In this document: positions 34,564 to 49,191 of the stretch, piece by piece
Position numbering within the stretch: position 1 is the stretch's first letter
Layout: each line of letters starts with the position of its first letter
Assembly: GCF_000317145.1 (NCBI RefSeq)
Contig: NC_019697.1
Coordinates: 4,538,886 to 4,602,885 of the forward strand
Length of the DNA: 64,000 bases
DNA from: Chamaesiphon minutus PCC 6605
GTDB taxonomy: Bacteria; Cyanobacteriota; Cyanobacteriia; Cyanobacteriales; Chamaesiphonaceae
Reading direction: 5' to 3'
Program-made: the position numbers and the translations under genes
The notes under the pieces: model-generated
Seen by the model: the letters and a program-made list of their open reading frames with translations, nothing else
What the model was told of the DNA's origin: nothing
The model's database searches: none

Positions 34564-37500
34564 TTATGTACATGCTACTACTTCTTGGATTGTAGAAGCG
34601 AGCATCTGGAGCGCGATCGGTTTAGAGATATACTGACTCGCTCCCGCCGCCAGACAGCGTTCTCGATCGCCGTCCAGATTGGCAGCAGTTAGTGCAAGAA
34701 TGGGTAGTTTGGCAAATTCAGGATCGTTACGCAGTTGTGCTATCGCTGCTAAGCCATCCAAAACTGGCATTTGAATATCCATCAAAATTGCTTCAGGATG
34801 GTGTAACTTCGCTTGCTCGATCGCCTCTCGACCATTTTTCGCCACAATAATGTTGTAACCTTTGGTTTCCAAATAATCAGAGACTGTCTCTACAGTAGAT
34901 CTGTCGTCATCGACAATTAAGATTTGTGTGCCTCTTTTTGGCGGACGCGAATTTGCGGTGAGGGCAAGCTGTCTATCCAAAGCTACCTGGCTCAGAAATG
35001 GTACTCTCGCTTCCGCAGTGGGATCTCGATCGAAGGAGACGAGCGAGCCGAGATTTCCACAAGGTAGATCGATCGTAAACCGACTACCGACATTTACTTC
35101 GCTAGTGACACTCACTTTTCCCCCATGCAACTTGACGATCTGGCGCACCAAATTTAGACCCAAACCAGTACCCTGTGCTTTGCGGTTGAACTCACTGTCG
35201 ATCTGCGCGAACGGCTGAAACAATTTATTTAAATGTTCGGGTGCAATGCCAATCCCAGTATCGGTGACGGTAAGTTGTAGCAGAGCTGGAACAGCTTCAG
35301 TTGCATTAAAATAGTCCACACCTATACCGATTCGACCACTTTCAGGCGTGAATTTGACGGCATTACCCAGCAAATTAATCAAAACTTGGCGAATCCGACG
35401 TTCGTCGATCTCCACTTTTGGTAGATGTGGGGGTAGATTTACGGCTAGTTGAATTTGTTTTTTGTCAGCTTGAGGCTTGATAAAAGATAAACTATCCTCA
35501 CAAAGTCGATCGATATCCGTGGGTTCGCGATATATCTCTAATTTTCCAGCCTCCATTTTGGCCAGATCGAGAATATCGTCGATTAATGCCAGAAGATGAT
35601 TGCCACTATTCTCGATTACCTGGATGCACCGTAATTGTTTGGGGTTGAGCGTGCCATAGACTTGTTCGATCAAGCCTTCGGACATCCCCAAAATGGCATT
35701 GAGTGGCGTGCGAAGTTCGTGACTCATATTGTTGAAGAACATTGTCTTCGATCGATTGGCTTCTTCGGCAGCTTCTTTAGCCAATTTTAACTGGCTGGTA
35801 CGTTGTTCGACCTTGTGTTCGAGTTCGACAACAGAGGCTTCCAATCGACTATAAAGCTTGGCATTCTCGATCGAGATCGCCGCTTGCGCAATCAGGATTT
35901 CGAGTGTTTCCAATCGAGGACGCGCGAACAGATCGACGGTAACCTGATTTTCTAAATATAAAATGCCCACCAGATTTCCTCGATCGAGGATTGGAGTACA
36001 CAATACACTTTTGGGTCGATACTGCTGAAGGTATTCATCTCCACTGTACTGCATCAACTGGTGAGCATCTGTCAACAAAATTGGCTCTAAACTACGGCCT
36101 ACCTGATTTACCAAACTAACAGCAATATCGGTACTTTCCTCAAATGGTATCGGCGATAATAGTTGCGTTTTATGCTCTAGTTCGACTTTGGCGACTAGCT
36201 GCAAACTATCTTCTGTTTTGAGAAATAATACACATTTATCGGCACCAGCAGTAGCAATAACGATCTCTAACAGATTGGTAATGAGTAGTTCGAGTTTTAC
36301 CTGTTGCGAAATATTCCGCGAAGCTTTGAGCAAACTTTCCAAATCTAAAAATGTCGAGTCACACATCACCGAATTAGTAACATCAGTTACTTCAGGCTCG
36401 ACAACTTCAACAGATTCTTGGTTCGTAATTGAGGCGAGGAGCTGAGGATAGAGCGTCTTTAATTGCACAACTTTAGCTTTGGCTCCCCATCGCCCATAAC
36501 AATAATAAGCTTCCATCATATAGGATTGAGCTAATTTATCTTTACCCCAACCCAAATAAAACTTACCTGCCAATTCATTTGCCAGTGCTTCTTCATGAAC
36601 GAATTGATATTCCTTTGCTCCCTCAATAGCTCGATCGTAATGTTCGATCGCCCCAGCTTTATTACCTAATACCCGTTGTTTTTCGGCTTCAATTAAATCC
36701 CACTTATGCAGATAATTCATCGGTGCATTTTGCGCCCACAGATCGATCGTCCCTTGATGGATTTCGACTTGGGCAAGAGTTTCAATCCGCTCTAGTTCCG
36801 ACCGTTCGGGATATAATGCTAAATGAGTCAGTGCTGCATAAAAATGGAACACCGGAATCTGAATCATTCCAGAGACTGCTTGTAAATACAATTTGCCTTT
36901 GGTAATATTCTCTAGTGCCGCCGAGTAATTACCAAACAAATACGCCAGCATCAACTTGTAAATATAGGCATAGGCGAGAGCAGTAAGATCGCCATCTTCA
37001 AGATGTTTGGGAATCATTACCGTTTCATCATAAGCACTACCGACAAGACAATCTACTCGATCGTTTCCCTTTGCCAACAAGTTTTGTGCTATCTGCCGCT
37101 TCATCTCTAGATAAGCTTGTGCAGAATATTGTTTGATTTGTTCTAAATCTTTACTATAAGGTGAGATTTCCCCCTCCCAAGTAATCAGCTCTACTCCAGA
37201 GATCAGATGAGCATCAAAGTAACAACTGATAGTATATCCAGTAACGAGCGAATCACCAGATGCCTTGATATCTGTATAAGCATATTTTAGGTTTGGGATA
37301 GTTTTTCCTATAATTTCTTGGCGATGCTGAATCCATGCTGCAAATAGAAATGCTATTCTGCCTTTAAATTCTTGTGCATTCATGCGATCTGCCAAATTAA
37401 GTGCTAATTTGCCAAAACGATAGCCTGCTTTCACGTCTCCAAAAAAAGCACTTAGAACTAAGCCATGATTCACATATCCTATTGATGATGCCAATGTATT

Positions 37501-40374
37501 GCCAAATTGGAGCGATAAATTCACCATCATAGAGCTAAGAATCGGCAGTAGCGGTGGCATCCCAACAAAAATAGGTGCTCCTATATCTGCTAACAGTTCT
37601 ATGGTTTGTGAAGGTTGTAAATCCTTCATCACTGGCAAATATAATAAATCTTCAATTTGGATGCCTTCGAGTTGGTGACTAAGTTTCTGTAGTGCTTGAA
37701 CAGTCCCGGCTTCATCAGGTGAGATCGGGAATTCGATTCCCAATTGAGCTAATGCAGATCTACCTACAGAGATCGCGTCTTGCATTTTGCCATTGGCAGT
37801 AAGTGCAGCAATCTGGATTTTGTAGATTTTAACTTTATCTGAAATCATCTGTGCAGATCGCAAAACGATGACTGAGATATCTTCCATCCCATCCAAATTG
37901 CCTTCTAAATAAGCAGCTTCGGCAGCCGCAACATGTAGATCTAATGTTAATTGATACTGAGTTTCCCAACAGTCGATCGCTAGGAGTGCGATACCCGATC
38001 GTAAATAAGTATTTGCCGCTGCATAAGCCGTAGCAGCTCTGGCTTTTTTGCCCGCAGTTAGATTGAGTTTGGCTAAAGATACTCTTTGATGTGGCTGCGT
38101 AATTAGTGTTTGGGCTAGATTTAAATGTCCGACTATATCGAAGAGTTTTTCTGCTCTAGCAATCTCGGAAGACTTTTGATAGAGTAATTGACCGATTTTG
38201 AGATGAGTTGCTTGTTTGCAATCGTCAGGAATGAGCGAATAAGCTGCTTGTTGAACGCGATCGTGTAAGAATCGATAAAATGGATTGGCTGCTGTCGTTG
38301 ACACCGACTGGACATCAGATCTGGTGAAAAACTTGTAGACTTCTGTTGTCGGAATTAATAAGTTATTTTGTAACCCTTCCCATAAAATTGCTGCTGTCTC
38401 TGCTGGCGAACGCTCCAAAACGATCGCTAAGGTATCCAAATCGAATTGCGATCCAATACATGCGGCTAAAGATATTGCCGATTGAGTTGCTGTCGGTAAT
38501 TTTTGTAATTGTAACGCCATAAACTCGACCACATCATCAGTTAAAGCCAAGGCTTTAACTTTGGCAACATCGCAACTCCAGCCGCCAACATCGCTATTAT
38601 GACTGACTCGATCGAATGTAATCAATCCATCTTCATGTAATGATTTGAGAAATTGCGTAGCAAAAAAGGGATTACCTTGAGTTTTTAGAGCTACCAATTT
38701 AGCTAAGGGTTGGGCGTGGAGTAGGCTACAATTTAAGGCACCCGCAACTAATTGACTTAAACCTTCTGTAGTCAGAGATTCTAATCTAATCGTATCGACG
38801 TTGATGCCAGTTTTTGCGATCTCGTCGATCGCTAAAATCGCTGGATGAACGGGTGAGACTTCATTGTCTCGATAAGCTCCCAATACTAGTAGATAGCCAG
38901 TATCTTGCATCAACAATTGCAGTAAATTGAGCGATGCTAAATCTGCCCATTGCAAATCGTCTAGGAATAATACCAGTGGATGTGCGGCGGTGGCAAACAA
39001 CCGCACGAATTTTTGCATTAGCAGATTAAATCGTTGCTGTGCGGAACTTCCAGTTAATTCCGGCACGGGAAGTTGCTTGCCGATAATGCGTTCTAATTCG
39101 GGAATGACATCGATCAATACCTGCCCATACTCGCCTACAATATTCAGGATCTCGGTTTTCCAGACGAGCAGTTGGGCATCGGATTCGCACAGCAAGTTTC
39201 GCATCAAACCGCCAAAGGCTTGCCCGAAAGCAGAAAATGGGATATTGCGCCCAAATTGGTCGTATTTACCCTTAATAAAGTAGCCGCGCTGACGCACGAT
39301 CGGTCTGTGAACTTCTTGAATCACCACAGTTTTGCCGACACCAGACGAGCCAGCAACTAAGAGCATTTCGGTAATACCCTTGCTAACTCGTTCAAAAGCA
39401 TTCAGAAGTACGGCAACTTCTGGTTCGCGACCGTATAATTTTTCGGGAATGGTAAAGCGATCGCTCGGATCGCGCTCTCCCAATTCAAATAATTCGATCT
39501 TACCCGTAGCCTGCAATCGAGCCAAACAAATCTCTAGATCGTATCTGAGTCCCAACGCATTTTGATAGCGATCTTCAGCATTCTTGGACATCAACTTGCT
39601 GACAAACTGCGAGATCGGTAAGGGAATCTGCGGCGCAATCTGGTGTACTGGCACTGCTGGTTTAGCAATATGGCTATGCACCAATTCCATCGGATCGTTG
39701 GAAATAAATGGTAATTGCCCTGTCAATAGCTCGTAGCAGGTGACACCCAATGTATAAAAATCGCTGCGATAGTCGATCCCGCGATTCATGCGTCCGGTTT
39801 GTTCGGGGGACATATAGGCTAGCGTCCCAGCTAACATATTGGCATGTTCGATCTGTTGAGTTTCTTTTGGCAACAGCGACGAAAGACCAAAGTCGATCAG
39901 TTTGACGTGCTGAGTCTCTGGGTGGATCAGGATATTGCCAGGTTTGATATCTTTGTGAATGACCCGCTGACGATATAATCCTTCTAGTGCGTCAGCAATT
40001 TGAATGGCAATTTGGAGAAAGGCAATCAATTTTTGCGGTTCGTTGCCAAAAGCTCCCGATTTATCTAAGTAAGATTTGAGTGAGATACTACCGCAATCCT
40101 CAAGGATCAGAGCATAGGCGTTTTGGTAGGGTTCTAGTGCCAGTGTTTTGATGACATTGGGCAGATTTAAATCTTTGCCGATATCGTACTGATGCCGAAA
40201 CTGCATCAGTCGCTCGAAGCTGGGAAACTTACTCCGTAAGAGTTTGATGGTAACTGGATGTAAATCGGATTCTCTAACCCCTCGGTACAGCAGGGTACGA
40301 TTGCCTACATAAATTTCTTCGGCAATCTGATAACCTGGTACATGCACGCTCGTCTTCATCATTCTAGTCCCCAA
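34564..40374 (-). CDS. Giant hybrid kinase: Ser/Thr kinase, AAA ATPase, GAF, histidine kinase and receiver domains
   Basis: The 1936-residue protein begins with a Hanks-type Ser/Thr kinase (about 15-280; HKDIKPGNILIH and LIDFGLSSLLP; APE-like MSPEQTGRMNRG). An AAA/NACHT-like ATPase follows (about 310-620; GSSGVGKT and FLDDLQWADLAS), then a long helical TPR-like region (about 700-1290) and a GAF domain (about 1390-1540). The histidine kinase core has SHELRTPLNAILG, LINLLGNAVKFTPE, DTGIGI and GTGLGLN, and a C-terminal receiver has MDIQMPVLDG. This architecture is common in filamentous and complex cyanobacteria; the signal is unknown. It was probably co-transcribed with the response regulator now split by an IS. 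Confidence 0.93.
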   Translation of the reverse strand: MGTRMMKTSVHVPGYQIAEEIYVGNRTLLYRGVRESDLHPVTIKLLRSKFPSFERLMQFRHQYDIGKDLNLPNVIKTLALEPYQNAYALILEDCGSISLKSYLDKSGAFGNEPQKLIAFLQIAIQIADALEGLYRQRVIHKDIKPGNILIHPETQHVKLIDFGLSSLLPKETQQIEHANMLAGTLAYMSPEQTGRMNRGIDYRSDFYTLGVTCYELLTGQLPFISNDPMELVHSHIAKPAVPVHQIAPQIPLPISQFVSKLMSKNAEDRYQNALGLRYDLEICLARLQATGKIELFELGERDPSDRFTIPEKLYGREPEVAVLLNAFERVSKGITEMLLVAGSSGVGKTVVIQEVHRPIVRQRGYFIKGKYDQFGRNIPFSAFGQAFGGLMRNLLCESDAQLLVWKTEILNIVGEYGQVLIDVIPELERIIGKQLPVPELTGSSAQQRFNLLMQKFVRLFATAAHPLVLFLDDLQWADLASLNLLQLLMQDTGYLLVLGAYRDNEVSPVHPAILAIDEIAKTGINVDTIRLESLTTEGLSQLVAGALNCSLLHAQPLAKLVALKTQGNPFFATQFLKSLHEDGLITFDRVSHNSDVGGWSCDVAKVKALALTDDVVEFMALQLQKLPTATQSAISLAACIGSQFDLDTLAIVLERSPAETAAILWEGLQNNLLIPTTEVYKFFTRSDVQSVSTTAANPFYRFLHDRVQQAAYSLIPDDCKQATHLKIGQLLYQKSSEIARAEKLFDIVGHLNLAQTLITQPHQRVSLAKLNLTAGKKARAATAYAAANTYLRSGIALLAIDCWETQYQLTLDLHVAAAEAAYLEGNLDGMEDISVIVLRSAQMISDKVKIYKIQIAALTANGKMQDAISVGRSALAQLGIEFPISPDEAGTVQALQKLSHQLEGIQIEDLLYLPVMKDLQPSQTIELLADIGAPIFVGMPPLLPILSSMMVNLSLQFGNTLASSIGYVNHGLVLSAFFGDVKAGYRFGKLALNLADRMNAQEFKGRIAFLFAAWIQHRQEIIGKTIPNLKYAYTDIKASGDSLVTGYTISCYFDAHLISGVELITWEGEISPYSKDLEQIKQYSAQAYLEMKRQIAQNLLAKGNDRVDCLVGSAYDETVMIPKHLEDGDLTALAYAYIYKLMLAYLFGNYSAALENITKGKLYLQAVSGMIQIPVFHFYAALTHLALYPERSELERIETLAQVEIHQGTIDLWAQNAPMNYLHKWDLIEAEKQRVLGNKAGAIEHYDRAIEGAKEYQFVHEEALANELAGKFYLGWGKDKLAQSYMMEAYYCYGRWGAKAKVVQLKTLYPQLLASITNQESVEVVEPEVTDVTNSVMCDSTFLDLESLLKASRNISQQVKLELLITNLLEIVIATAGADKCVLFLKTEDSLQLVAKVELEHKTQLLSPIPFEESTDIAVSLVNQVGRSLEPILLTDAHQLMQYSGDEYLQQYRPKSVLCTPILDRGNLVGILYLENQVTVDLFARPRLETLEILIAQAAISIENAKLYSRLEASVVELEHKVEQRTSQLKLAKEAAEEANRSKTMFFNNMSHELRTPLNAILGMSEGLIEQVYGTLNPKQLRCIQVIENSGNHLLALIDDILDLAKMEAGKLEIYREPTDIDRLCEDSLSFIKPQADKKQIQLAVNLPPHLPKVEIDERRIRQVLINLLGNAVKFTPESGRIGIGVDYFNATEAVPALLQLTVTDTGIGIAPEHLNKLFQPFAQIDSEFNRKAQGTGLGLNLVRQIVKLHGGKVSVTSEVNVGSRFTIDLPCGNLGSLVSFDRDPTAEARVPFLSQVALDRQLALTANSRPPKRGTQILIVDDDRSTVETVSDYLETKGYNIIVAKNGREAIEQAKLHHPEAILMDIQMPVLDGLAAIAQLRNDPEFAKLPILALTAANLDGDRERCLAAGASQYISKPIALQMLASTIQEVVACT

Positions 40375-40537: not shown

Positions 40538-41656
40538 TTATATTTTTAAATCAGATAATGGTTTTTGAGCGATGATGAGATCTCGCACCCCAGTTTCATT
40601 TTTCAAACAAAATCTAATTTCTCCAAATCCTGCTTTATCAATTATGGACTCGATTTGAGAAGGTGTAAAATTGTTGCCTTGCATTGCAAGTAACATACAT
40701 AGAGATAAGATTGCAGGCTGAAGTGGCCCTGTTTTTTGTTCGTTGAAAAGGGTTTCGCTAACTATTAATAACCCGCCAGGTTTTAATAAATTGTGCGCTT
40801 GATGTAGAATTTGCATTCTTGCATTTACACCCCAATCAGCCAGTACCCCAGAGAGAATTACGGCATCCGCGCTTTCGATTTGCGCACTGAGATCGTCGAA
40901 GAGATTGCCTGGAATACACTTGACCTGCTGTTGTAAACCCTTGGTAGAAATGCGTTGCTGGATAAATTGGCAGGCAATTGGCAGATCCACCATTGCGATC
41001 GAAAGATGAGGCAATATTTCCGCTAATTCTAGAGATACCTGCCCTCCACCCGCACCTAAATCGATAATCTGCTGAATGTTACTAAAATCTATACTTTTAG
41101 GCATTGCAGCTCCAATACCGATGCTAGAACGGTTCATTGCTTCAAGGAAGATAAAGTATTCTTCAGGATGTTGTTCTAATTGTCTATAGTAGTCATTGAC
41201 CCGATCTAGATTCTTACTTGAAGAAACTTGCTTTATCTGTTGCTTACCACTTTTGATTGCTTCAGTTAAATTACCAAACAAGTCATAGCAACGCTTGTGA
41301 AAAAGCAAAGAACTTGTCATGCTCTGGGGACTGCTTGTGGTTAGCCATGTGCTAGCGGCTGGGGTGTTATGATAATTGCCCATGCTGTCACGCTTTAATA
41401 ATTCCATCGCAGTTAAGGCGATCGCCAAGCGTTCTAATCCATCTACAGAAACTTGGATTTCAGTAGCAATTTGTTCGCAGGTTTTAGGTGCATCGACTAG
41501 ACAATCGAATAGATTAAGTTCTACTGCACTTAGCAAAATAGATGAGAGCGCGTAACTACCGCCGATATATTCTAAAGTCTCTCCACTGGCTATAGTATTC
41601 CCCAGAAAGTTGAAGCCAAAATTTTGAGAATCTGTAGACTGTATTTCGTTGCCCAT
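40538..41656 (-). CDS. SAM-dependent O-methyltransferase (plant-OMT/acetylserotonin type)
   Basis: The 372-residue protein has an N-terminal dimerisation domain (YALSSILLSAVELNLFDCL, residues about 32-110) and a methyltransferase domain with the SAM motif IIDLGAGGGQVSLELAEIL (about 190-210), MVDLPIAC, and LLKPGGLLIVSETL. This is the small-molecule OMT family acting on hydroxyl or other groups in secondary metabolism. It is the last gene of an apparent operon, 47 bases after the PLP enzyme gene and downstream of the prenyltransferase fusion. It probably tailors the same product. The substrate cannot be predicted. Confidence 0.87.
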   Translation of the reverse strand: MGNEIQSTDSQNFGFNFLGNTIASGETLEYIGGSYALSSILLSAVELNLFDCLVDAPKTCEQIATEIQVSVDGLERLAIALTAMELLKRDSMGNYHNTPAASTWLTTSSPQSMTSSLLFHKRCYDLFGNLTEAIKSGKQQIKQVSSSKNLDRVNDYYRQLEQHPEEYFIFLEAMNRSSIGIGAAMPKSIDFSNIQQIIDLGAGGGQVSLELAEILPHLSIAMVDLPIACQFIQQRISTKGLQQQVKCIPGNLFDDLSAQIESADAVILSGVLADWGVNARMQILHQAHNLLKPGGLLIVSETLFNEQKTGPLQPAILSLCMLLAMQGNNFTPSQIESIIDKAGFGEIRFCLKNETGVRDLIIAQKPLSDLKI

Positions 41657-41703: not shown

Positions 41704-42861
41704 TTAGAGTAGAATTTTGTCTCGCTGGGTAAGTTCTACAACACTCTCAATTAGTTGCTGGCATTCTTGCTCTGTATTACAACAATGGGGTGAGACGCGG
41801 ATTCTTTGACTAGAACGGCTATCAACATCAATGCCTAAAGCGGCTAATTTCTGGACTACAATTTCAGCCCGATTTACTTCCAGGCAAACTGTTCCACCAC
41901 GATGGTGCGCAGAGCGCGGCGTATTAATTGTAATACCATTTGCATCAGCACACTCCATCAAGTAAGTTGTCAATTCAATATTACGTTGATGAATTTGTTT
42001 TACCCCAACCTCGATCGCAAAGAGCAGTCCCGCACGAGAGGTATAAATTGGCTCAAAGGATGGTGTTCCTTGTTGAAAGCGGCGTGCGCCAACAGCAGGT
42101 ACGAAAGTTGCTGCAAATGCAGTAGGCTGAAGATGAGAAAACCAGCCTGGATATACTGGATCGAGTTGTTCGGATAGAGATGAGTTGATGTATGCAAATG
42201 CTAAACCTATACCACCACAGAGCCACTTATTCATTCCCCCCAGCACCACATCTGCACCCAAAGATATGACATCAATTGGTAGCACACCAACAGCTTGATA
42301 TGCATCCAGAATCACGATTGCTCCAGCCGCGTGAGCAGCCTCAATAATGGGTTTAATATCGAGACAGGCACTATTAATATAGGAAACAAGAGATAAGGCA
42401 ACTACAGCAACTCGATCGTCAATTCGATCCATAACATCACTTGTTTCAATTTGCATTCTCTCCGACGCCTTGATCTCAATTATCTCAAAACCCCGCTGAA
42501 CTTGGGATTTCCATAAATAACGACCAGATGGAAAGTCTAAATCAGTAATAATAATGCGATTACGTTTGGCATTGGGCTGTATCGCAGCAGCGATCGCAGC
42601 TTGAGCCGCAGTTGTACTAGCAGTGATAGCCACTGAGCCAGTTGGTGCATTTATTAGTGTTTCAATCAGATGAAACATTTCTTCGTATCGTTCCTGCAAA
42701 AGTGCAAAAGCTCTTTTGCCTAGATAGAGACTCTGTATATATGCTTCTATATCTAAAAATGCTTCCTGCGGCAGTGGCCCTAGAGTATGAGTTGCTAGAT
42801 AATTACGCTGCTCAAGTAGGGGGAATTTTTTGCGGAGAGTCGTAAAATCTGAGACTGGCAT
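41704..42861 (-). CDS. Class-V PLP-dependent enzyme (kynureninase / isopenicillin-N-epimerase-like)
   Basis: The 385-residue protein is an aminotransferase class-V fold enzyme. The PLP aspartate and following Gln are in VILDAYQAVG, and the Schiff-base lysine is in GGMNKWLCGG. After the lysine comes YPGWFSHLQPTAFA, which resembles the GWFGH region of kynureninases. It has no cysteine-desulfurase active-site loop. The frame extends to a TTG at 42879, but ATG 42861 (MPVSDFTTLRKKF) is the natural start. It lies 37 bases after the prenyltransferase fusion gene and 47 before the methyltransferase, so the three are likely one transcript. Amino-acid C-C cleavage, epimerisation or desulfuration are all possible. 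Confidence 0.82.
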   Translation of the reverse strand: MPVSDFTTLRKKFPLLEQRNYLATHTLGPLPQEAFLDIEAYIQSLYLGKRAFALLQERYEEMFHLIETLINAPTGSVAITASTTAAQAAIAAAIQPNAKRNRIIITDLDFPSGRYLWKSQVQRGFEIIEIKASERMQIETSDVMDRIDDRVAVVALSLVSYINSACLDIKPIIEAAHAAGAIVILDAYQAVGVLPIDVISLGADVVLGGMNKWLCGGIGLAFAYINSSLSEQLDPVYPGWFSHLQPTAFAATFVPAVGARRFQQGTPSFEPIYTSRAGLLFAIEVGVKQIHQRNIELTTYLMECADANGITINTPRSAHHRGGTVCLEVNRAEIVVQKLAALGIDVDSRSSQRIRVSPHCCNTEQECQQLIESVVELTQRDKILL

Positions 42862-42898
42862 TATGATTGCTATTATCAAATACTGTTTACAATCGCGA

Positions 42899-44830
42899 TT
42901 AACTAAAGCAGAGTCGGTATAGTTGATTAAGAAAATTCCATGAGACTGCTCTCGTCTTTTCAGCTCCTTGTTTTGCTGCTACCATTCCCTCTTTTGAGTC
43001 GGCAATAAAGCGGGAAAGTAGCAATGCTTCATCAGCATGATCGATCTCAACTTCTTCATGGAGTGTCAACCATCCAATCTTAGAAAGTTCGATATTTGTC
43101 TTCCGAAACTCTTGGCCTAAGCATAGATCGAATTGCTTGCCGTGAATCTCCATCAATATGGCTGCGCCCACTCCTACATAGGCATCAGATTCAAAGTAAA
43201 TATCTGATAAGCTTTGGCTATATTCTTTGCCAGGAGTTAGCATTTCCTCGCTAAAATTCTCCATTTGCCAAGGTTCGATTCCATCAATCAATCGATCGAA
43301 AAGTTTTCTATGAACGCGATCGATATTTCCATTACCTAATTCCTCATTTAATTGCTTTGTGAGAATACAACGAATCCGTTCATCTTCAATTCTACCGACA
43401 ACGCTAGCAAGAAGGCGCGTAAAGTGAGTAACAACGCCCTCTCTCACATTCATAAATAACAGCCAAATATGTGCTGGATTAACTGTCTCTCGTTGCAATC
43501 GTTGCAAGAAAGGATGATGAGCTACTGTACGTTCTTCATAGTGCCATACCATCTCCTCTAAAGAAGAGACAGATTTAGTTTGTTGCGTGGCTATTTGCCG
43601 AGGCGGTCGGACTCTATTTAATTCTGGATTTAAGTAAAGAGTAACTCTTCTTTGTTGTTGCTCTCGACGCAAAGAAGTATAGGAGTGCATTCCCACGCCA
43701 GCATCTAATTGGCGTGTTGCAAATGATTGGATCGCTGACTGGTATTTAGAGACGGGAAGACCATGCTCGATGAAATATAAATCGATCGAATCGCATACGG
43801 CTCGATCGTCAGTAGCGTAGTTAGAAATTGGTAAGTGTAGCGTTCCAACTGATGGAGTTTCATTATCGCCTTCAACCCAGGAAAAAGCGGTGATAGCTGA
43901 CTTTGCTGAAAAAGAGGTTTGACCTGGTGCCATGGCTTGGCAAAACTCGATTGCGTCGCCAGGAACATAGTTACGAGCTGCACTCAGTGCTGATTCTAGT
44001 TCGGCTGGGGTGGCATCCTGATGGCGGAGGTATACTTTGACTCGCGCACGATTCTCCACCGGAGAGGCTACGCCAACGTGTGCCGCCAGATCCAAGGAGA
44101 AGTAGACAAATTCGTCTTTATCGGGGCCGCGTTGTGCTGCTGTTTCGGCGAGGGTCGGCCAAGCGTGAGTGAAACCGAGTCGAACTAAAGATTCTTCGAC
44201 GACTGCTGCGGCACGACTCGGCTGCTGAGATTGGGGGTTGAGATAGAGTTTAAAGGCTGATGGTTTGTCGGGGTAAAAGCACGCCGAGTGCCACATCGAG
44301 AATTTTGCTGCGGAATTTGTCGGTGCGAATAGATCGGCAATTCGATCGAAGCGATCGAGGCTGATGTTGTAATGTTCTGCTAAATATTGGTTGAGTTCGA
44401 GTCCGGCTTGCCAGTTGGACTCGACCGTGGCTGCGCTGCCTTGTGCTTCTACTAATACTCGTAATTCTGCTTTATCGGGATCTAAAGCGATCGAAAACTC
44501 AAAGGGAGAGCCATCATCCGAGACATCAGACGTCCAGCCAGTAGTTTCGCCAACTTTTCTTTGGCTCCAAGATGCCGCCAGTGCCCGAAAAATTTCCACG
44601 ATCTCGACAATTTTGTCATTCAGACCCAATGTATCTGCCAAAATTGTCAATTTTTCGATGCCGACTTCAACGTATGTCGGTGTAGGGATCAGTCGTTCTG
44701 GATCGAAGCCAATTTGAGGATTATGCTCGATCGAAGATCTCTCTTTTAATGGAAGTTCTATCTGTGAATCAATATTTTCAGATAGATTAGTTGGCTTCGA
44801 TCGGTTAGATGTATTCTCAAAATTAGTCAT
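42899..44830 (-). CDS. DMATS-type aromatic prenyltransferase fused to a heme-oxygenase-like di-iron (HDO) domain
   Basis: Residues about 45-390 look like an ABBA-fold DMATS prenyltransferase. There is a SPFEFS motif with the general-base-like Glu111, and repeated K/R-x-Y/T-x-Y strands (AFKLYLNPQ, RVKVYLRH, RVTLYLNPE) that would hold the prenyl diphosphate. Residues about 405-643 form a separate helical domain with the seven-ligand pattern of HDO di-iron oxygenases: Glu464, Glu497 with His507 ten residues later, Glu561, and His591-x3-Glu595-x2-His598. The whole is one unbroken frame of 643 codons. It heads a three-gene operon with a PLP enzyme and a methyltransferase. I know of no characterised enzyme with this fusion. 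A short repeat-derived stretch (HVGVASPVEN) interrupts the prenyltransferase part. Confidence 0.75.
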   Translation of the reverse strand: MTNFENTSNRSKPTNLSENIDSQIELPLKERSSIEHNPQIGFDPERLIPTPTYVEVGIEKLTILADTLGLNDKIVEIVEIFRALAASWSQRKVGETTGWTSDVSDDGSPFEFSIALDPDKAELRVLVEAQGSAATVESNWQAGLELNQYLAEHYNISLDRFDRIADLFAPTNSAAKFSMWHSACFYPDKPSAFKLYLNPQSQQPSRAAAVVEESLVRLGFTHAWPTLAETAAQRGPDKDEFVYFSLDLAAHVGVASPVENRARVKVYLRHQDATPAELESALSAARNYVPGDAIEFCQAMAPGQTSFSAKSAITAFSWVEGDNETPSVGTLHLPISNYATDDRAVCDSIDLYFIEHGLPVSKYQSAIQSFATRQLDAGVGMHSYTSLRREQQQRRVTLYLNPELNRVRPPRQIATQQTKSVSSLEEMVWHYEERTVAHHPFLQRLQRETVNPAHIWLLFMNVREGVVTHFTRLLASVVGRIEDERIRCILTKQLNEELGNGNIDRVHRKLFDRLIDGIEPWQMENFSEEMLTPGKEYSQSLSDIYFESDAYVGVGAAILMEIHGKQFDLCLGQEFRKTNIELSKIGWLTLHEEVEIDHADEALLLSRFIADSKEGMVAAKQGAEKTRAVSWNFLNQLYRLCFS

Positions 44831-45293
44831 AGCACACCCAATATTTAAATGTTAAATATTTATTTCTCGACTGTGGAAATATTTTTGATATCCTATCATA
44901 CGATCTTAAAAATTAGCAACCATGTTATTTTTATCACATTGATATATCAATTTAACGATTTAAAAAAGCTAGAAATCTCAGCTCTGAAAACAATTGCAAG
45001 CTTTGTCACAAGCTCGGTTTTCTTAGATATACAGGCTAAATTAGAGATCTAAAAATCTTTGAATGAGATCGATCGATACACACCCATACGTATGTATTAA
45101 TTTCTAAAAGATAATTATTTTATACTTGCTTTTCTATTACCGAAGAAATAACTGAAGAAAAGTTGTAGCAATCGCTACATTGCAGATATATTATCTAAAG
45201 TAATTTTATGAAGCACATCATAACAAATACAATAATTTAAACTTACTACAAAAATTGCTTTATAGAAAAAATAAGTATAGATTGACACAAAAA
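44831..45293. other. AT-rich intergenic region upstream of the prenyltransferase operon
   Basis: About 460 bases of AT-rich sequence without a supported gene; a 67-codon open frame at 44849-45052 looks random. It should carry the promoter of the minus-strand prenyltransferase operon. The partial palindrome CATACGTATG near 45091 could be an operator but is unproven. Confidence 0.4.
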
Positions 45294-45312
45294 ATCCCCA
45301 GATCGGGGGATT
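45288..45312 (-). terminator. Intrinsic terminator of the CBS/PAS/GAF hybrid kinase gene
   Basis: On the minus strand the hairpin AATCCCCCGATCTGGGGATT is followed directly by TTTTTT. It begins about 10 bases beyond the stop of the kinase gene and is a textbook rho-independent terminator. Confidence 0.85.
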
Positions 45313-45321
45313 GTTAGTTTT

Positions 45322-48300
45322 TTAGTTGCCTTGCAATAATGCTTCGATCGTCGAGACGAGTTGACCTAATTTGACGGGTTTACTTACATAGCGATCGGCT
45401 CCAGCATCGAGACATTTTTGACGATCGGCGGGCATTGCTAAAGCTGTCAAAGCCACGATCGGAATTGCCCTACAAGCCGGAATTTGGCGGAGGCGAGCGA
45501 TTGCTTCAAATCCGTCGATATCCGGCATCTGAATATCCATGAGAATCACGTCGGGAGTATGGATCTGAGCCATCTCGATCGCTTGTTGCCCAGTGCCAGC
45601 TCCTAGCAGCGCATAGCCACGACTTTGCAGGTAGCCTGTCATAGTCTCCATATTGGCTTCGTTGTCTTCTACAATGAGGATCGATGCCTTTGGCCCAGTC
45701 AAGAGAGTTGCTTGAGAGTCTGGAGCTAGATCGACAATCGGTGACACGGATGATGGCACCGCAATCGCCGCACTCAATTCGACAGGCAGACACACTCGAA
45801 AACAACTACCCCGATCGACTTGGCTCTCGACTGTGACTGTACCACCATGGAGTTCGACAATTCGCTTGACTAATGCCAATCCCAATCCCGTCCCCGCATA
45901 TTGGCGATTCAGACGGCTATCGATTTGGACGAATGACTGAAACAGCTTGGTAATATTTTCGGGAGCAATGCCAATGCCAGTATCGACGATCGACAAAGCG
46001 ATCTGCCTTGGCGTTGTAACTGTACCCAGTCCCCCCGTCCCCTCGGCTCCCAATCCTCCCGTCTCCTTGTCCAGCACCCGCACATCTAAAGTCACACTGC
46101 CCCCTTCGGGCGTAAATTTGACCGCGTTGCTGAGTAAGTTAATCAGGACTTGACGAATGCGCAGATCGTCTACGCGAATATTTATCTGCTTGAGGTATTC
46201 TGGCAGTTGGGTGGTCAGGTTGATTTGTCGCTTGTGGGCGAGTTCTTTGACAAATAACAAACTATTTTGGCACAGCGACTGAATCGAGACGTCGGTTAAT
46301 TCGAGGACGAATTTGTTAGCTTCGATCTTGGAGAGATCGAGAATATCGTTAATTAGTGAGAGTAGGTGTTTGCCGCTTTTTTCGATCGTGACGAGCGAAC
46401 TTAGTTGCTGCTGGTTGAGAGAGCCAAAGACAGATGTCTGTAAGGCTTCAGACATGCCGAGAATGGCATTGAGTGGGGTACGTAACTCGTGACTCATGCT
46501 GGCTAAAAACTCATCCTTGAGCCGGGTGGCGCGAGCGAGTTCTTGGTTGGAGATAGCGAGCTGGTAATTGGTTTGACGCAATTGGGTTTCGGCTTGCTGT
46601 CGATCGGTTAATTGAGCCTGCAATTGCTCGAATAGATTTGCCTGTTGAATCGCGATCGCTAGTCGATCGGCAATTTGTTGGAGTAATTGCGCTTCGGCAG
46701 CATCCCAGTGACGCTGGCAACCGCACGCATGGATGCTCAACAACCCCCACAATCGGAGGCGATCGCTGGGTTCGAGTCCGCTGTGAGTGTTGGCACCGCC
46801 GACGGGTAACAAAATCGGTGCGACAATTTTCGACTTGACACCGATCGTGTCTACATATTCCGGCAAGCATTCCGACCACGCATCTTGGAGCACATCGTTG
46901 ACAATATGCGGGTGGCCGTGTAGGTAAAAGTCAAACTCTGCTTGGCTGATACATTCGTCTTCCCAATTTCGTTGGAGCAGACTAGGATAGCTGGGCATGA
47001 CAACTTCTTCGACAACTCGGATGTGTCGATCGGGGAAAACGCGGAAAATCGTCACCCGATCGACAAGCATTAATTTCTGCACCTGCCCAGTTGCTGTAGT
47101 GAGGATTTCTTCGACCTTCAACGAATTGCGAGTTTGCTGGGCGATTGCCCCTAATGCTTGCTGCTGGAGCAGTTGGCGCGCGATCGTCTCTTCCGCCTGC
47201 CAGCGGATCTTCAATCCCGATCGGACTGTTTCATACAGGGTGGCTTGTTGGATCGCAATCCCGATCTGTTCGCCAATATGTTTGAGAAAGTCGATCTCAG
47301 TCTCTTGCCAAGTCCGCTGCGATCGACAATGATGGACGCACAGCAAACCCCATAAAGTTGAGCCATTGAGCAGCGGCACGACTAAATTTGCCCGTACCTG
47401 AAAGTTGGCGAGCATCTGCACCTCAGTATCTAACATTCCCGCCGTATAAATATCTTCGACGGCATTAATGCGACCTTGCTGATAGTAATGTGCCAATTGT
47501 TCGTCAAAGTTAGGATCGCGAACTTTTGCACCGACAATTGTCATAAATCCGTTAGCTACAGACTCAGCGACAAATTCACCCACGTCGCTGTGGCACTGGG
47601 GATCGAATCTGAAGATGCTAACTCGATCGGTTTCCAGAAATGCCCGGATTTCTCGCACCGCCGTGTCAAACACGATCGGTAGCTCCAGAGATTTCCGAAT
47701 CCGTTGCATCATTTCTCGCAGGAGAAATTCACGCTCGGCTTGTTGTCGGGTCGTTTGTTCGGTTTGCTGACGCAGCCATTCGTCATGTTTGGCCGCGCTA
47801 ATATCAAAGTTAATTCCCACCATCCGACAAGCCCGATCGCGCTCGTCGCGCTGTACCAAACCATAAGCTTTGAGATGATGGGTACTCCCATCTGGATGGA
47901 TGACGCGAAATTCAGCATTAAAGTCGGCTGTTTTCAATACAGCTTGCGTTAATCCTTCCCGGATGGCACGTCGATCCTCGGGATGGACAATTTTCAGCCA
48001 AGTAGCGTAGGTATTGCTTTGTTCGGAGTCGGAGTTAGTACCGATCTGTCCGTATAATTCGTACATCCGATCGTCCAAAATAAATCGATCGCCGATGATA
48101 TCCCACTCCCAACAGCCGACTGCACCAGATTTAAGCGATAATGACAGCCGCTCGGATAGTTTTTTTAGCTCCGTTTCGGCGTGCTTGCGCTGGGTAATAT
48201 CTTGATAAGTGCCCAGTACCCCGATCGTGTCGCCGTTAAGATTGCGTAAGGGTACTTTGTTGGTTTCTAACCAGATCGAGCTACCGTCTACCTGTGTCTG

Positions 48301-49107
48301 AGTTTCAATAATCCCCAATTTTGCCGTGCCTGAGGCGATCGTTTCGCGATCGTCAGCACGGTAAGCCTCGGCTTCCACCTCACCCCATGGTAGCTCGTAG
48401 TCAGTTTTGCCAATAATTTCTGCTGGCGTCAAATTAGCAGCCCGGGCAAAATTCTGATTGCAGCCTAAATAACGCGAGTCTCGATCCTTCCAAAATACAG
48501 CCAGTGGAAAAGCCTCAAATACAGTTTGCAGAAATTGCTGCGATTCTTTCAGGGCTAGTAGCGGCTCGAGATCGGGCTGTAGTGATGCGATGCCAGTTGC
48601 CAGTATGTTATCTAGGGCTGGCTCTTGTGGTGTGGTTGCTGCCGCTGCTGTAGCTAAATGACGGTACAACCGATCGCGCTTAATCATCCCCACCAAACAA
48701 TCTCGATCGTCCACAAGCGGTAAATAGTCAATGTGATGCCGCTCGAATAATTGAGTTGCTACCGATAAATCTGTCAATGCAGATTGTCGCAGTATCACCA
48801 CTGGCGATCTCATCAGATCGCGGATCGTTACTTTGCTCAAATCTCTTCCCTGGGCAAGCGATCTGATTACATCTGTCGCCGCGAACATCCCGATCGGTCG
48901 TTCGTTTTCAACAATGACGATCCACGCAGGATCGCCGCTATCTAATTCATTCAATCGATCGCTCATCAGCGCGATCGCCTCGATCGCTATTGTCTGGGGC
49001 GAGACTACGAGCGGCTGACAGACGATGTGCCGCAAGATCGACACAGAGATCGTTTCGGACTGAGCGAACGGGACGGGATCGAGCATTAATTTTCGGCAAA
49101 TCGGCAT
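45322..49107 (-). CDS. Hybrid histidine kinase with CBS pair, two PAS, two GAF and a receiver domain
   Basis: The protein starts with two CBS motifs (about residues 20-150; VVSPQTIAIEAIALMSDR and LTDLSVATQLFERHHIDYLPLVDD). Two PAS/PAC segments follow (AFPLAVFWKDRDSRYLGCN; GCWEWDIIGDRFILDDRM), then two GAF domains (about 460-840), one with the bilin-GAF-like CVHHC context. The kinase core has SHELRTPLNAILGMSE, LINLLSNAVKFTPEGG and GTGLGLAL, and the protein ends in a receiver with MDIQMPDIDG. CVHHCRSQRTW and SIHACGCQRHW resemble phytochrome-type GAFs, so chromophore binding is possible, though the usual flanks were not checked. TTG 49125 and ATG 49086 are alternative starts. Confidence 0.92.
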   Translation of the reverse strand: MPICRKLMLDPVPFAQSETISVSILRHIVCQPLVVSPQTIAIEAIALMSDRLNELDSGDPAWIVIVENERPIGMFAATDVIRSLAQGRDLSKVTIRDLMRSPVVILRQSALTDLSVATQLFERHHIDYLPLVDDRDCLVGMIKRDRLYRHLATAAAATTPQEPALDNILATGIASLQPDLEPLLALKESQQFLQTVFEAFPLAVFWKDRDSRYLGCNQNFARAANLTPAEIIGKTDYELPWGEVEAEAYRADDRETIASGTAKLGIIETQTQVDGSSIWLETNKVPLRNLNGDTIGVLGTYQDITQRKHAETELKKLSERLSLSLKSGAVGCWEWDIIGDRFILDDRMYELYGQIGTNSDSEQSNTYATWLKIVHPEDRRAIREGLTQAVLKTADFNAEFRVIHPDGSTHHLKAYGLVQRDERDRACRMVGINFDISAAKHDEWLRQQTEQTTRQQAEREFLLREMMQRIRKSLELPIVFDTAVREIRAFLETDRVSIFRFDPQCHSDVGEFVAESVANGFMTIVGAKVRDPNFDEQLAHYYQQGRINAVEDIYTAGMLDTEVQMLANFQVRANLVVPLLNGSTLWGLLCVHHCRSQRTWQETEIDFLKHIGEQIGIAIQQATLYETVRSGLKIRWQAEETIARQLLQQQALGAIAQQTRNSLKVEEILTTATGQVQKLMLVDRVTIFRVFPDRHIRVVEEVVMPSYPSLLQRNWEDECISQAEFDFYLHGHPHIVNDVLQDAWSECLPEYVDTIGVKSKIVAPILLPVGGANTHSGLEPSDRLRLWGLLSIHACGCQRHWDAAEAQLLQQIADRLAIAIQQANLFEQLQAQLTDRQQAETQLRQTNYQLAISNQELARATRLKDEFLASMSHELRTPLNAILGMSEALQTSVFGSLNQQQLSSLVTIEKSGKHLLSLINDILDLSKIEANKFVLELTDVSIQSLCQNSLLFVKELAHKRQINLTTQLPEYLKQINIRVDDLRIRQVLINLLSNAVKFTPEGGSVTLDVRVLDKETGGLGAEGTGGLGTVTTPRQIALSIVDTGIGIAPENITKLFQSFVQIDSRLNRQYAGTGLGLALVKRIVELHGGTVTVESQVDRGSCFRVCLPVELSAAIAVPSSVSPIVDLAPDSQATLLTGPKASILIVEDNEANMETMTGYLQSRGYALLGAGTGQQAIEMAQIHTPDVILMDIQMPDIDGFEAIARLRQIPACRAIPIVALTALAMPADRQKCLDAGADRYVSKPVKLGQLVSTIEALLQGN

Positions 49108-49191
49108 TACTTTTAGAATGCCCAAAAAGTGGCCGTAAATTTGGGTTGGAGAATGGGCACTCTAAAGCATATATTAAGCAAATAATTTCAG

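Follow-up and report, generated by a model that had tools for sequence, protein, structure and literature searches.

Heme-oxygenase-like di-iron oxygenases (HDOs) form a family of more than 10,000 members, of which about a dozen have been characterised (PMC13108848), and they are recognised by the ligand motif E-H-E-H-(D/E)-H (PMC11363339). AetD, a member of this family, converts (bromo)tryptophan to indole-3-carbonitrile, and its relative SktA makes skatole (PMC11611611, PMC13108848). The solved bacterial dimethylallyltryptophan synthases (DMATS) are chains of roughly 360–405 residues, which consist of the prenyltransferase only, without an HDO domain. Here we describe a gene of the cyanobacterium Chamaesiphon minutus PCC 6605 in which a DMATS and an HDO are joined in one reading frame. 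It lies on the minus strand of a 64,000-nucleotide stretch of contig NC_019697.1 (positions 4,538,886 to 4,602,885), referred to below as the window, in whose numbering positions are given unless another locus is named. The joining is a new architecture made from known families: a literature search over titles and the beginnings of abstracts, which took in few subscription articles and lay outside bioRxiv, found no published fusion of the two, just as the first-pass annotation, made from the sequence alone, had known of no characterised enzyme of this kind, and no word starting with “prenyl” occurs in the main text of the HDO papers searched. We propose, with slightly better than even confidence, that the protein is a bifunctional tryptophan tailoring enzyme, in which the DMATS half prenylates L-Trp and the HDO half then oxidises the product, with the indole ring as the most likely site, to feed a neighbouring pyridoxal phosphate (PLP) enzyme.

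The fusion gene is a single uninterrupted frame of 643 codons from ATG to stop, exactly where it had first been placed (42899–44830), and the plus strand of this interval is rich in stop codons. Profile searches pass the curated cut-offs for both families, with Trp_DMAT (PF11991) matching residues 96–282 (38.3 bits, cut-off 25) and Haem_oxygenas_2 (PF14518) matching residues 466–626 (51.3 bits, cut-off 28.9), which bears out the two domains read from the sequence in the first-pass annotation. Other full-length fusions, which it had suggested looking for, do exist: the gene is present in five of nine Chamaesiphon genomes, that of C. minutus included, and in four of the five with a completeness of 90% or more and a contamination of 5% or less. 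The other four copies (loci L010 to L013) are 90, 74, 74 and 64% identical to the window's protein and came from a scan at the genome_contigs level, which finds close relatives only. All eight residues singled out beforehand (E111, E464, E497, H507, E561, H591, E595 and H598) are at the positions given for them and are invariant in the five Chamaesiphon homologues.

The ratio of non-synonymous to synonymous substitution rates (dN/dS) over the ten pairs of fusions is 0.08–0.17 for the DMATS part and 0.07–0.25 for the HDO part, these being rough values with many dS above 1. These ratios show purifying selection on both halves, with loose constraint on residues 1–45 and on the linker. An origin by assembly join, frameshift or chance is ruled out by the independent genomes; the fusion is not an assembly accident, because it occurs at full length in five of nine genomes, with purifying selection on both domains and an invariant motif. 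No further full-length match came up among 386 sampled genomes of the phylum. PF11991 occurs in two of these genomes, that of C. minutus and G334, and the HDO profile (A2) matched 13, the other 12 matches being open frames of 186–320 residues, too short for the fusion. Among 72,556 plasmid records there were ten matches to the fusion, all to the DMATS part and none over 80% of the query, and a PHROGs search gave no result.

The N-terminal half is similar to bacterial DMATS in both sequence and fold. Its closest solved relatives by sequence are the chains 6zry (6.6e-40) and 6zrx, then CymD and the 6-dimethylallyltryptophan synthase 7w8u. With the full-length model, which is of middling confidence (13 rows; mean predicted local distance difference test score, pLDDT, of 68), Foldseek matched 6zry at E 3.7e-17 and 30% identity, with a TM score of 0.49 when normalised to the query and 0.85 when normalised to the target, and ranks 1–23 were held by 6-DMATS, CymD, PriB, IptA and 5-DMATS, several of these structures containing bound L-Trp. 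The model thus has the prenyltransferase (PT) barrel expected from the sequence, as found in 6-DMATS of Micromonospora olivasterospora (6zrx, to which 6zry is nearly identical), CymD, PriB, IptA and 5-DMATS of Streptomyces coelicolor, with which the fusion has 26–30% identity and its catalytic residues in common. E111, K194, R263, K265, Y267 and Y399 are invariant in all 14 aligned DMATS proteins (alignment A4) and R395 is present in at least 90% of them, so the conserved Glu of the SPFEFS stretch and the K/R-x-Y residues noted in the first reading hold up. We take Glu111 to be the catalytic base beside the indole NH, and the Lys, Arg and Tyr residues (K-x-Y, R-x-K-x-Y and R-x3-Y) to bind the diphosphate. 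Free L-Trp is the likeliest acceptor.

The structure of the HDO half, modelled separately from 15 rows, is predicted to be a seven-helix heme-oxygenase-like fold (mean pLDDT 85). The best 50 Foldseek matches include CtCADD, HrmI, BesC, RohS, UndA, AetD and FlcD, interspersed with relatives of PqqC and TenA; ranks 1–9 are CADD, HrmI and BesC. A second fold comparison, again over the best 50 matches, gave HrmI (Z 25.4, root mean square deviation 2.5, 220 residues aligned) and CADD (Z 23.8) as ranks 1–7, with further Z scores of 20.9 for FlcD, 20.4 for BesC, 20.3 for PqqC, 18.8 for RohS, 16.7 for AetD and 16.5 for SznF. The residues Glu497, His507, Glu561, His591, Glu595 and His598 fit the E-H-E-H-(D/E)-H motif, are invariant in all five fusions, including L013 with its divergent HDO part of only 48% identity, and fall on helices 484–497, 507–521, 550–575 and 582–609 of the full-length model. 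In the wider alignment of 15 HDO rows, four rows of one group are gapped at Glu561, and ten other rows have Asp at the position of Glu595. From the alignments, these six residues are well supported as the core metal ligands. A haem oxygenase proper is not favoured, since the motif, like the fold matches listed, speaks for an HDO.

Compared with its nearest structural relatives, the fusion shares with HrmI, an L-lysine N-oxygenase, the spacings E-x9-H and H-x3-[D/E]-x2-H and a local likeness (ELGNGNIDRVH in the fusion, EMGNGKPAEVH in HrmI), but the two are only about 16% identical, and HrmI has Asp where the fusion has Glu, a different N-terminal part and lysine as substrate. CADD and BesC have the same fold and six-ligand motif, without a prenyltransferase and with other substrates. 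The streptozotocin N-oxygenase SznF is likewise a multi-domain enzyme, in which the partner of the HDO is a cupin, and is a weaker fold match; its ligand spacings are similar to those of the fusion. The first-pass annotation, which likened the ligand spacings to those of SznF or BesC, was right in naming an HDO, but HrmI and CADD are closer in fold than either. Its view of Glu in place of Asp as a peculiarity did not hold: the published motif, E-H-E-H-(D/E)-H, allows either residue at the fifth position, and AetD carries E176 there (PMC11363339, PMC10654658).

That annotation had also counted Glu464 as a seventh ligand. Six of its seven ligands stand; Glu464 is invariant but its position is off compared with SznF and AetD. 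It is located on predicted helix 452–467, taken as auxiliary helix 2, one to two helical turns off by counting, and precedes Glu497 by 33 residues (His469 precedes it by 28). In SznF the first core Glu is E215. The extra ligand E189 of SznF is 26 residues before E215, and the equivalent F48 of AetD is 28 residues before D76 (PMC11611611, PMC10654658). HrmI, counted as a six-ligand enzyme in a review (PMC13108848), shows in our alignment, counted by eye, a Glu that precedes the first core Glu by 33 residues. Because the spacing differs from SznF and AetD, and six-ligand HrmI has a Glu at the same distance, Glu464 could as well contact the substrate, and the seventh ligand of SznF has no proven counterpart in the fusion.

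The gene that follows the fusion encodes a PLP enzyme with the kynureninase C-terminal domain KYNU_C (PF22580, 47.8 bits, cut-off 27), whose best solved relative is the kynureninase 1qz9 (2.7e-27). In the L011 orthologue a Lys aligns with the PLP lysine of 1qz9; the window's protein has N-K at this place. The PLP gene stands directly after the fusion in the window, L010, L011 and L012, though not in L013, and at E 1e-20 it is present in four of the nine genus genomes, every one of which has the fusion, and in none without it. It is the sole KYNU_C match in the C. minutus genome, which has no Trp_dioxygenase match at E 0.001, formamidase and indoleamine dioxygenase not having been searched for.

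Across the 386 phylum genomes at E 0.001, KYNU_C occurs in 12, tryptophan 2,3-dioxygenase (TDO) in 13 and both in 9 (overlap by genome handle); without the matches below cut-off (G021 for KYNU_C, G096 for TDO) the counts are 11, 12 and 8. The sample includes genomes marked only “same phylum”, to which 10 of the 12 KYNU_C and 12 of the 13 TDO genomes belong. L056 and L057 are the two best relatives, among the fetched KYNU_C loci, of every one of the four Chamaesiphon PLP enzymes, at 34–36% identity and 233–263 bits, the rest scoring at most 137. Each of these two directly adjoins a Trp_dioxygenase gene, as does L060, which is third by bits or nearly tied for it. Among both lists, which contain several genomes in many contigs, KYNU_C and TDO are on one contig in just these three loci (G026, G044 and G021). 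In these TDO–kynureninase pairs the PLP gene comes directly after the indole-opening enzyme, and in Chamaesiphon the fusion stands in the place of TDO. A tree of kynureninase-like proteins groups the four Chamaesiphon enzymes with those of G026 and G044 and a long-branch trio (G004b, G032a and G010b) with support of 91/89, a node below the tool's confidence mark and without a settled order inside the group, and the TDO-adjacent G021 falls outside on a long branch. The tree thus lends mild support to a kinship with TDO-adjacent PLP enzymes. PLP enzymes of this kind thus accompany an indole-opening enzyme, a place which the fusion occupies in Chamaesiphon; this is the chief new argument for ring opening, though an indirect one.

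In the proposed pathway, the DMATS domain would move the dimethylallyl group of dimethylallyl diphosphate to the indole ring of free L-Trp, and the prenyl-Trp would pass from the barrel to the HDO site, where Glu497, His507, Glu561, His591, Glu595 and His598 would bind two irons. The diferrous centre would react with O2 to give a peroxo species that oxidises prenyl-Trp. Oxidative opening of the indole C2–C3 bond would yield prenylated (N-formyl)kynurenine, which the kynureninase-like enzyme would cleave to prenylated anthranilate and alanine, and an O-methyltransferase encoded nearby may decorate the product in this strain. We consider the core of this scheme, namely free L-Trp as substrate, the order of the two steps and oxidation by the HDO half, to be probable; prenylation of an aromatic amino acid followed by oxidation, the role first suggested for the gene, is plausible. 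Indole ring opening as the HDO reaction is put forward tentatively; on account of the kynureninase-like partner it ranks first among the individual reactions considered. A precedent for four-electron dioxygenation by an HDO is FlcD, although that enzyme is mononuclear (PMC11363339).

The fusion at L013 (7851–9767) differs from the others in an uneven manner. Its HDO module has diverged far more than its DMATS half, beginning at about residue 410, near the domain border. In 40-residue windows, L013 is 62–100% identical to the other four at centres 101–380, 64–67% at 400 and 35–62% at centres 419–619, where the pairs window–L011 and L011–L012 stay at 57–93%. The excess of non-synonymous change in the HDO half is significant in all four pairs with L013 (p 0.0005, the minimum with 2000 shuffles) and in none of the six without it. 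A synonymous test for a domain swap is significant in three of the four L013 pairs (p 0.0015–0.0475; 0.10 in the fourth), with dS near saturation. The HDO module of L013 may therefore have been replaced or have changed rapidly. The genome of L013 (G389) has no match to the PLP enzyme anywhere, and because this PLP-less locus has the divergent module, the HDO half and the PLP enzyme seem, on one case, to go together. A wider reading, rather doubtful as a joint claim, would make the HDO half a non-heme di-iron dioxygenase that stands in for the heme TDO by opening the indole of prenyl-Trp, in a dedicated prenyl-kynurenine route to prenylated anthranilates. The fusion would then be a swappable two-module scaffold, and the lineage that lacks the PLP enzyme would have exchanged or re-tuned its HDO module.

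A DMATS and an HDO were also found side by side, as separate genes, on plasmid4 of Calothrix sp. NIES-4101 (AP018277.1, L019 7407–12042), where a DMATS, an AetD homologue, a flavin monooxygenase and a short-chain dehydrogenase stand in a row; the first two are annotated “hypothetical protein”. The lone DMATS is 42% identical to the fusion over 54% of the query. The HDO, P0003 (268 residues), is encoded directly after it, is an AetD homologue (3.1e-43) that keeps the six iron ligands and F48 of AetD, and belongs to the AetD family by its sequence and by its ligand order D-x2-H, E, H-x3-E-x2-H. The cluster is predicted from its genes to form a prenylated indole nitrile or skatole. The idea that its flavin monooxygenase, P0004, might be an AetF-like halogenase gained no support: the best 60 of its 68 PDB matches are mostly flavin monooxygenases and none is AetF or a halogenase by name. 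An AetD-type HDO was rejected for the fusion by sequence, which has E-x9-H instead of D-x2-H and for which no AetD appeared in a profile search at E up to 10, and P0003 gave no blastp match to the fusion at E 0.1.

By sequence, then, the Calothrix HDO is of a different subfamily from that of the fusion. The fusion resembles AetD, SktA and the Calothrix pair in having an HDO that would act on ring-substituted Trp, and AetD shares with it H-x3-E-x2-H. The Calothrix pair differs from the fusion in its separate genes, its HDO subfamily and its partners, a flavin monooxygenase and a short-chain dehydrogenase where the fusion has a kynureninase-like neighbour. Cyanobacteria have thus probably brought a DMATS and an HDO together on two or more occasions. 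No DMATS is annotated beside the AetD-like genes of Calothrix sp. PCC 7716 and of Aulosira laxa NIES-50, and the plasmid search found no DMATS in records of PCC 7716 or Aulosira, so that the pairing of DMATS with AetD rests on one locus. The first-pass annotation, correct as to the gene itself and in outline as to its role, had left out the minus strand, the kynureninase-like neighbour and the Calothrix pairing.

Several observations weigh against the ring-opening pathway. No HDO reaction opens an indole ring in the parts of the HDO literature examined, the protein of closest fold, HrmI, is an N-oxygenase, and relatives of PqqC and TenA score little below the HDOs in both fold searches. The full-length model (pTM 0.49) does not place the two domains relative to each other. 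NCBIfam TIGR03429 (arom_pren_DMATS) aligns with residues 97–401 at 84.3 bits, below its curated cut-off of 163.85, so the fusion is not filed in that subfamily (the Calothrix DMATS, at 109 bits, is also below it), and TleC and MpnD, whose structures were solved with indolactam V, are among the DMATS fold matches, which leaves room for an acceptor other than free Trp. With the kynureninase equivalog model TIGR01814, whose cut-off is 246.4 bits, the PLP enzyme reaches 109 bits and is therefore termed kynureninase-like rather than a kynureninase; since the TDO-adjacent relatives L056 and L057 also stay below this cut-off (141 and 94.5 bits), all these PLP enzymes may do something else. The KYNU_C match of L060 (G021), at 25.8 bits, is under its cut-off of 27. 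Two genomes besides that of C. minutus, G016 and G382 (the latter with a partial match), have KYNU_C without TDO, and L013, which retains the fusion but lacks the PLP gene, shows that the fusion can do without this partner.

Most of the alternatives concern the HDO half. It may be an N-oxygenase that turns the alpha-amine or the indole nitrogen of prenyl-Trp into a hydroxylamine, oxime or nitro group, to be handled by the PLP enzyme or the methyltransferase. The rank and local sequence of HrmI fit such an activity, and Glu464 could be an extra ligand as in SznF, but fold says nothing on function, HrmI and BesC having similar ligand sets and different chemistry (PMC13108848), and simple N-hydroxylation would not call for a kynureninase-like partner; we regard this reading as unlikely. 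Rather more unlikely is a cleavage of the prenyl-Trp side chain by the HDO half, with a PLP enzyme unrelated to that step, in the manner of AetD (nitrile), BesC or SktA (skatole, reportedly with cyanide as co-product). The known HDOs that act on Trp do break the side chain (PMC11611611, PMC13108848), Calothrix pairs its DMATS with an AetD homologue, and AetD shares H-x3-E-x2-H, but the fusion HDO has no sequence match to AetD (profile search at E up to 10) or P0003 (blastp at E 0.1), its fold is further from AetD (Z 16.7) than from HrmI and CADD (25.4 and 23.8), and the first two ligands are spaced differently.

The prenyltransferase half might instead act on another aromatic, such as tyrosine, kynurenine, indole or a peptide residue, so that the pathway would not start from free L-Trp. 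DMATS enzymes are promiscuous, identity to the solved bacterial enzymes is only 26–30%, and the fold matches include, besides the two indolactam enzymes, FunA, named as a free histidine prenyltransferase; kynurenine as acceptor would reverse the order of the steps. Against this, the best matches in sequence and fold are Trp enzymes and the neighbouring genes fit tryptophan metabolism, and we judge it less likely again than side-chain cleavage. A structural or regulatory HDO domain, or two halves acting in separate reactions, would agree with the variable linker, the lack of a predicted arrangement of the domains and the absence of a known activity, but is very improbable given six ligands that are invariant even in L013 and purifying selection on the domain. 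The preferred reading remains that of a tryptophan tailoring enzyme of two steps.

The coordinates of the fusion, its parts and its neighbours are listed in Table 1. The O-methyltransferase is found at this place only in C. minutus, with a 28% identical relative elsewhere in one other genus genome. The upstream hybrid histidine kinase adjoins the fusion in all five loci (cut by the contig end in L012), and the downstream hybrid kinase is also present at L010 and L013; a 37% identical relative of the latter is located near the Calothrix DMATS cluster, and such kinases may be common in cyanobacteria. A predicted stem-loop, which scored terminator-like on both strands, would separate the fusion gene set from the upstream kinase gene, in an operon-like order. 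A promoter scan was uninformative, with 13 found and 12.9 expected.

Table 1. Positions within the window of the fusion gene, its domains and putative catalytic residues, and the adjacent features
Feature	Position	Strand	Basis
DMATS–HDO fusion gene P0001	42899..44830	−	Open reading frame from ATG to stop, 643 residues, both Pfam domains
N-terminal tail, residues 1–45	44696..44830	−	Weakly conserved, pLDDT below 50
DMATS aromatic prenyltransferase domain, residues 46–412	43595..44695	−	PF11991; PDB 6zry 6.6e-40; Foldseek 6zry
Linker, residues 413–421, variable	43568..43594	−	Alignment, dN/dS, model
HDO domain, residues 422–643	42902..43567	−	PF14518; model pLDDT 85; fold matches
Codon of Glu111, putative catalytic base	44498..44500	−	Invariant in 14/14 DMATS proteins
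Codon of Glu464, claimed seventh ligand, unproven	43439..43441	−	Invariant in 5/5 fusions
Codon of Glu497, first core ligand	43340..43342	−	Invariant in 15/15 HDO rows
Codon of His507, second core ligand	43310..43312	−	Invariant in 15/15 HDO rows
Codon of Glu561, third core ligand	43148..43150	−	5/5 fusions; predicted helix 550–575
Codon of His591, fourth core ligand	43058..43060	−	Invariant in 15/15 HDO rows
Codon of Glu595, fifth core ligand	43046..43048	−	Glu in 5/5 fusions
Codon of His598, sixth core ligand	43037..43039	−	Invariant in 15/15 HDO rows
Kynureninase-like PLP enzyme (aminotransferase class V)	41704..42879	−	19 nucleotides after fusion stop; likely start ATG at 42861
O-methyltransferase	40538..41656	−	Best solved relative hydroxyindole O-methyltransferase 4a6d, 3.1e-36
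CBS/PAS/GAF hybrid histidine kinase, upstream	45322..49125	−	Domain names from reading the sequence, without family search
Ser/Thr kinase–histidine kinase hybrid, downstream	34564..40374	−	Sequence reading and likeness to annotated Calothrix gene
Terminator-like stem-loop between upstream kinase gene and fusion	45293..45312	−	Consensus scan

Other DMATS loci were compared as well. No match to the HDO profiles A2 and A3 was found beside the DMATS genes of the actinomycete plasmid loci L020 to L026 (seven of the nine matched actinomycete records, those left out being H7 and H9 from Streptomyces clavuligerus) or of L002. In G334, the lone DMATS is followed by a PLP enzyme of aminotransferase I/II type. 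A DMATS with a PLP enzyme directly after it is found at L002 310–2739 (G334) and, on Streptomyces plasmids and annotated as tryptophanase, at L020 7854–10505 and L022 7935–10536. On a plasmid of Streptomyces sp. YIM 121038 (L023 7989–9536), one open frame has both Trp_DMAT (45.3 bits) and a cupin (56.5 bits); this may represent another type of DMATS fusion or a pair of genes sharing the frame, and the incomplete gene table lists the cupin only. The AetD-like protein of Calothrix has 332 plasmid matches (about 28% identity where shown), 266 of them in Escherichia, 22 in Salmonella and 36 in Piscirickettsia; coverage of the query reaches 80% in only 45 of them all. On pCERC13 (L074 5001–6503) the match is the first part of a 500-residue “hypothetical protein”, in a stretch between two copies of the insertion sequence IS1.

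The reactions of HDOs are not readable from their ligand set. In this case, the fusion names the likely upstream step, by an indole prenyltransferase, and the PLP neighbour names the likely downstream step; because the flanking steps are named in this way, a handful of compounds would suffice to test the substrate and reaction of the HDO directly. Should ring opening prove true, the fusion would represent an unrelated route to the reaction of the heme tryptophan dioxygenase. Judging by the independent pair of a DMATS and an AetD-type enzyme in Calothrix, HDOs that oxidise prenyl-tryptophan may be a recurrent and unexplored branch of cyanobacterial chemistry.

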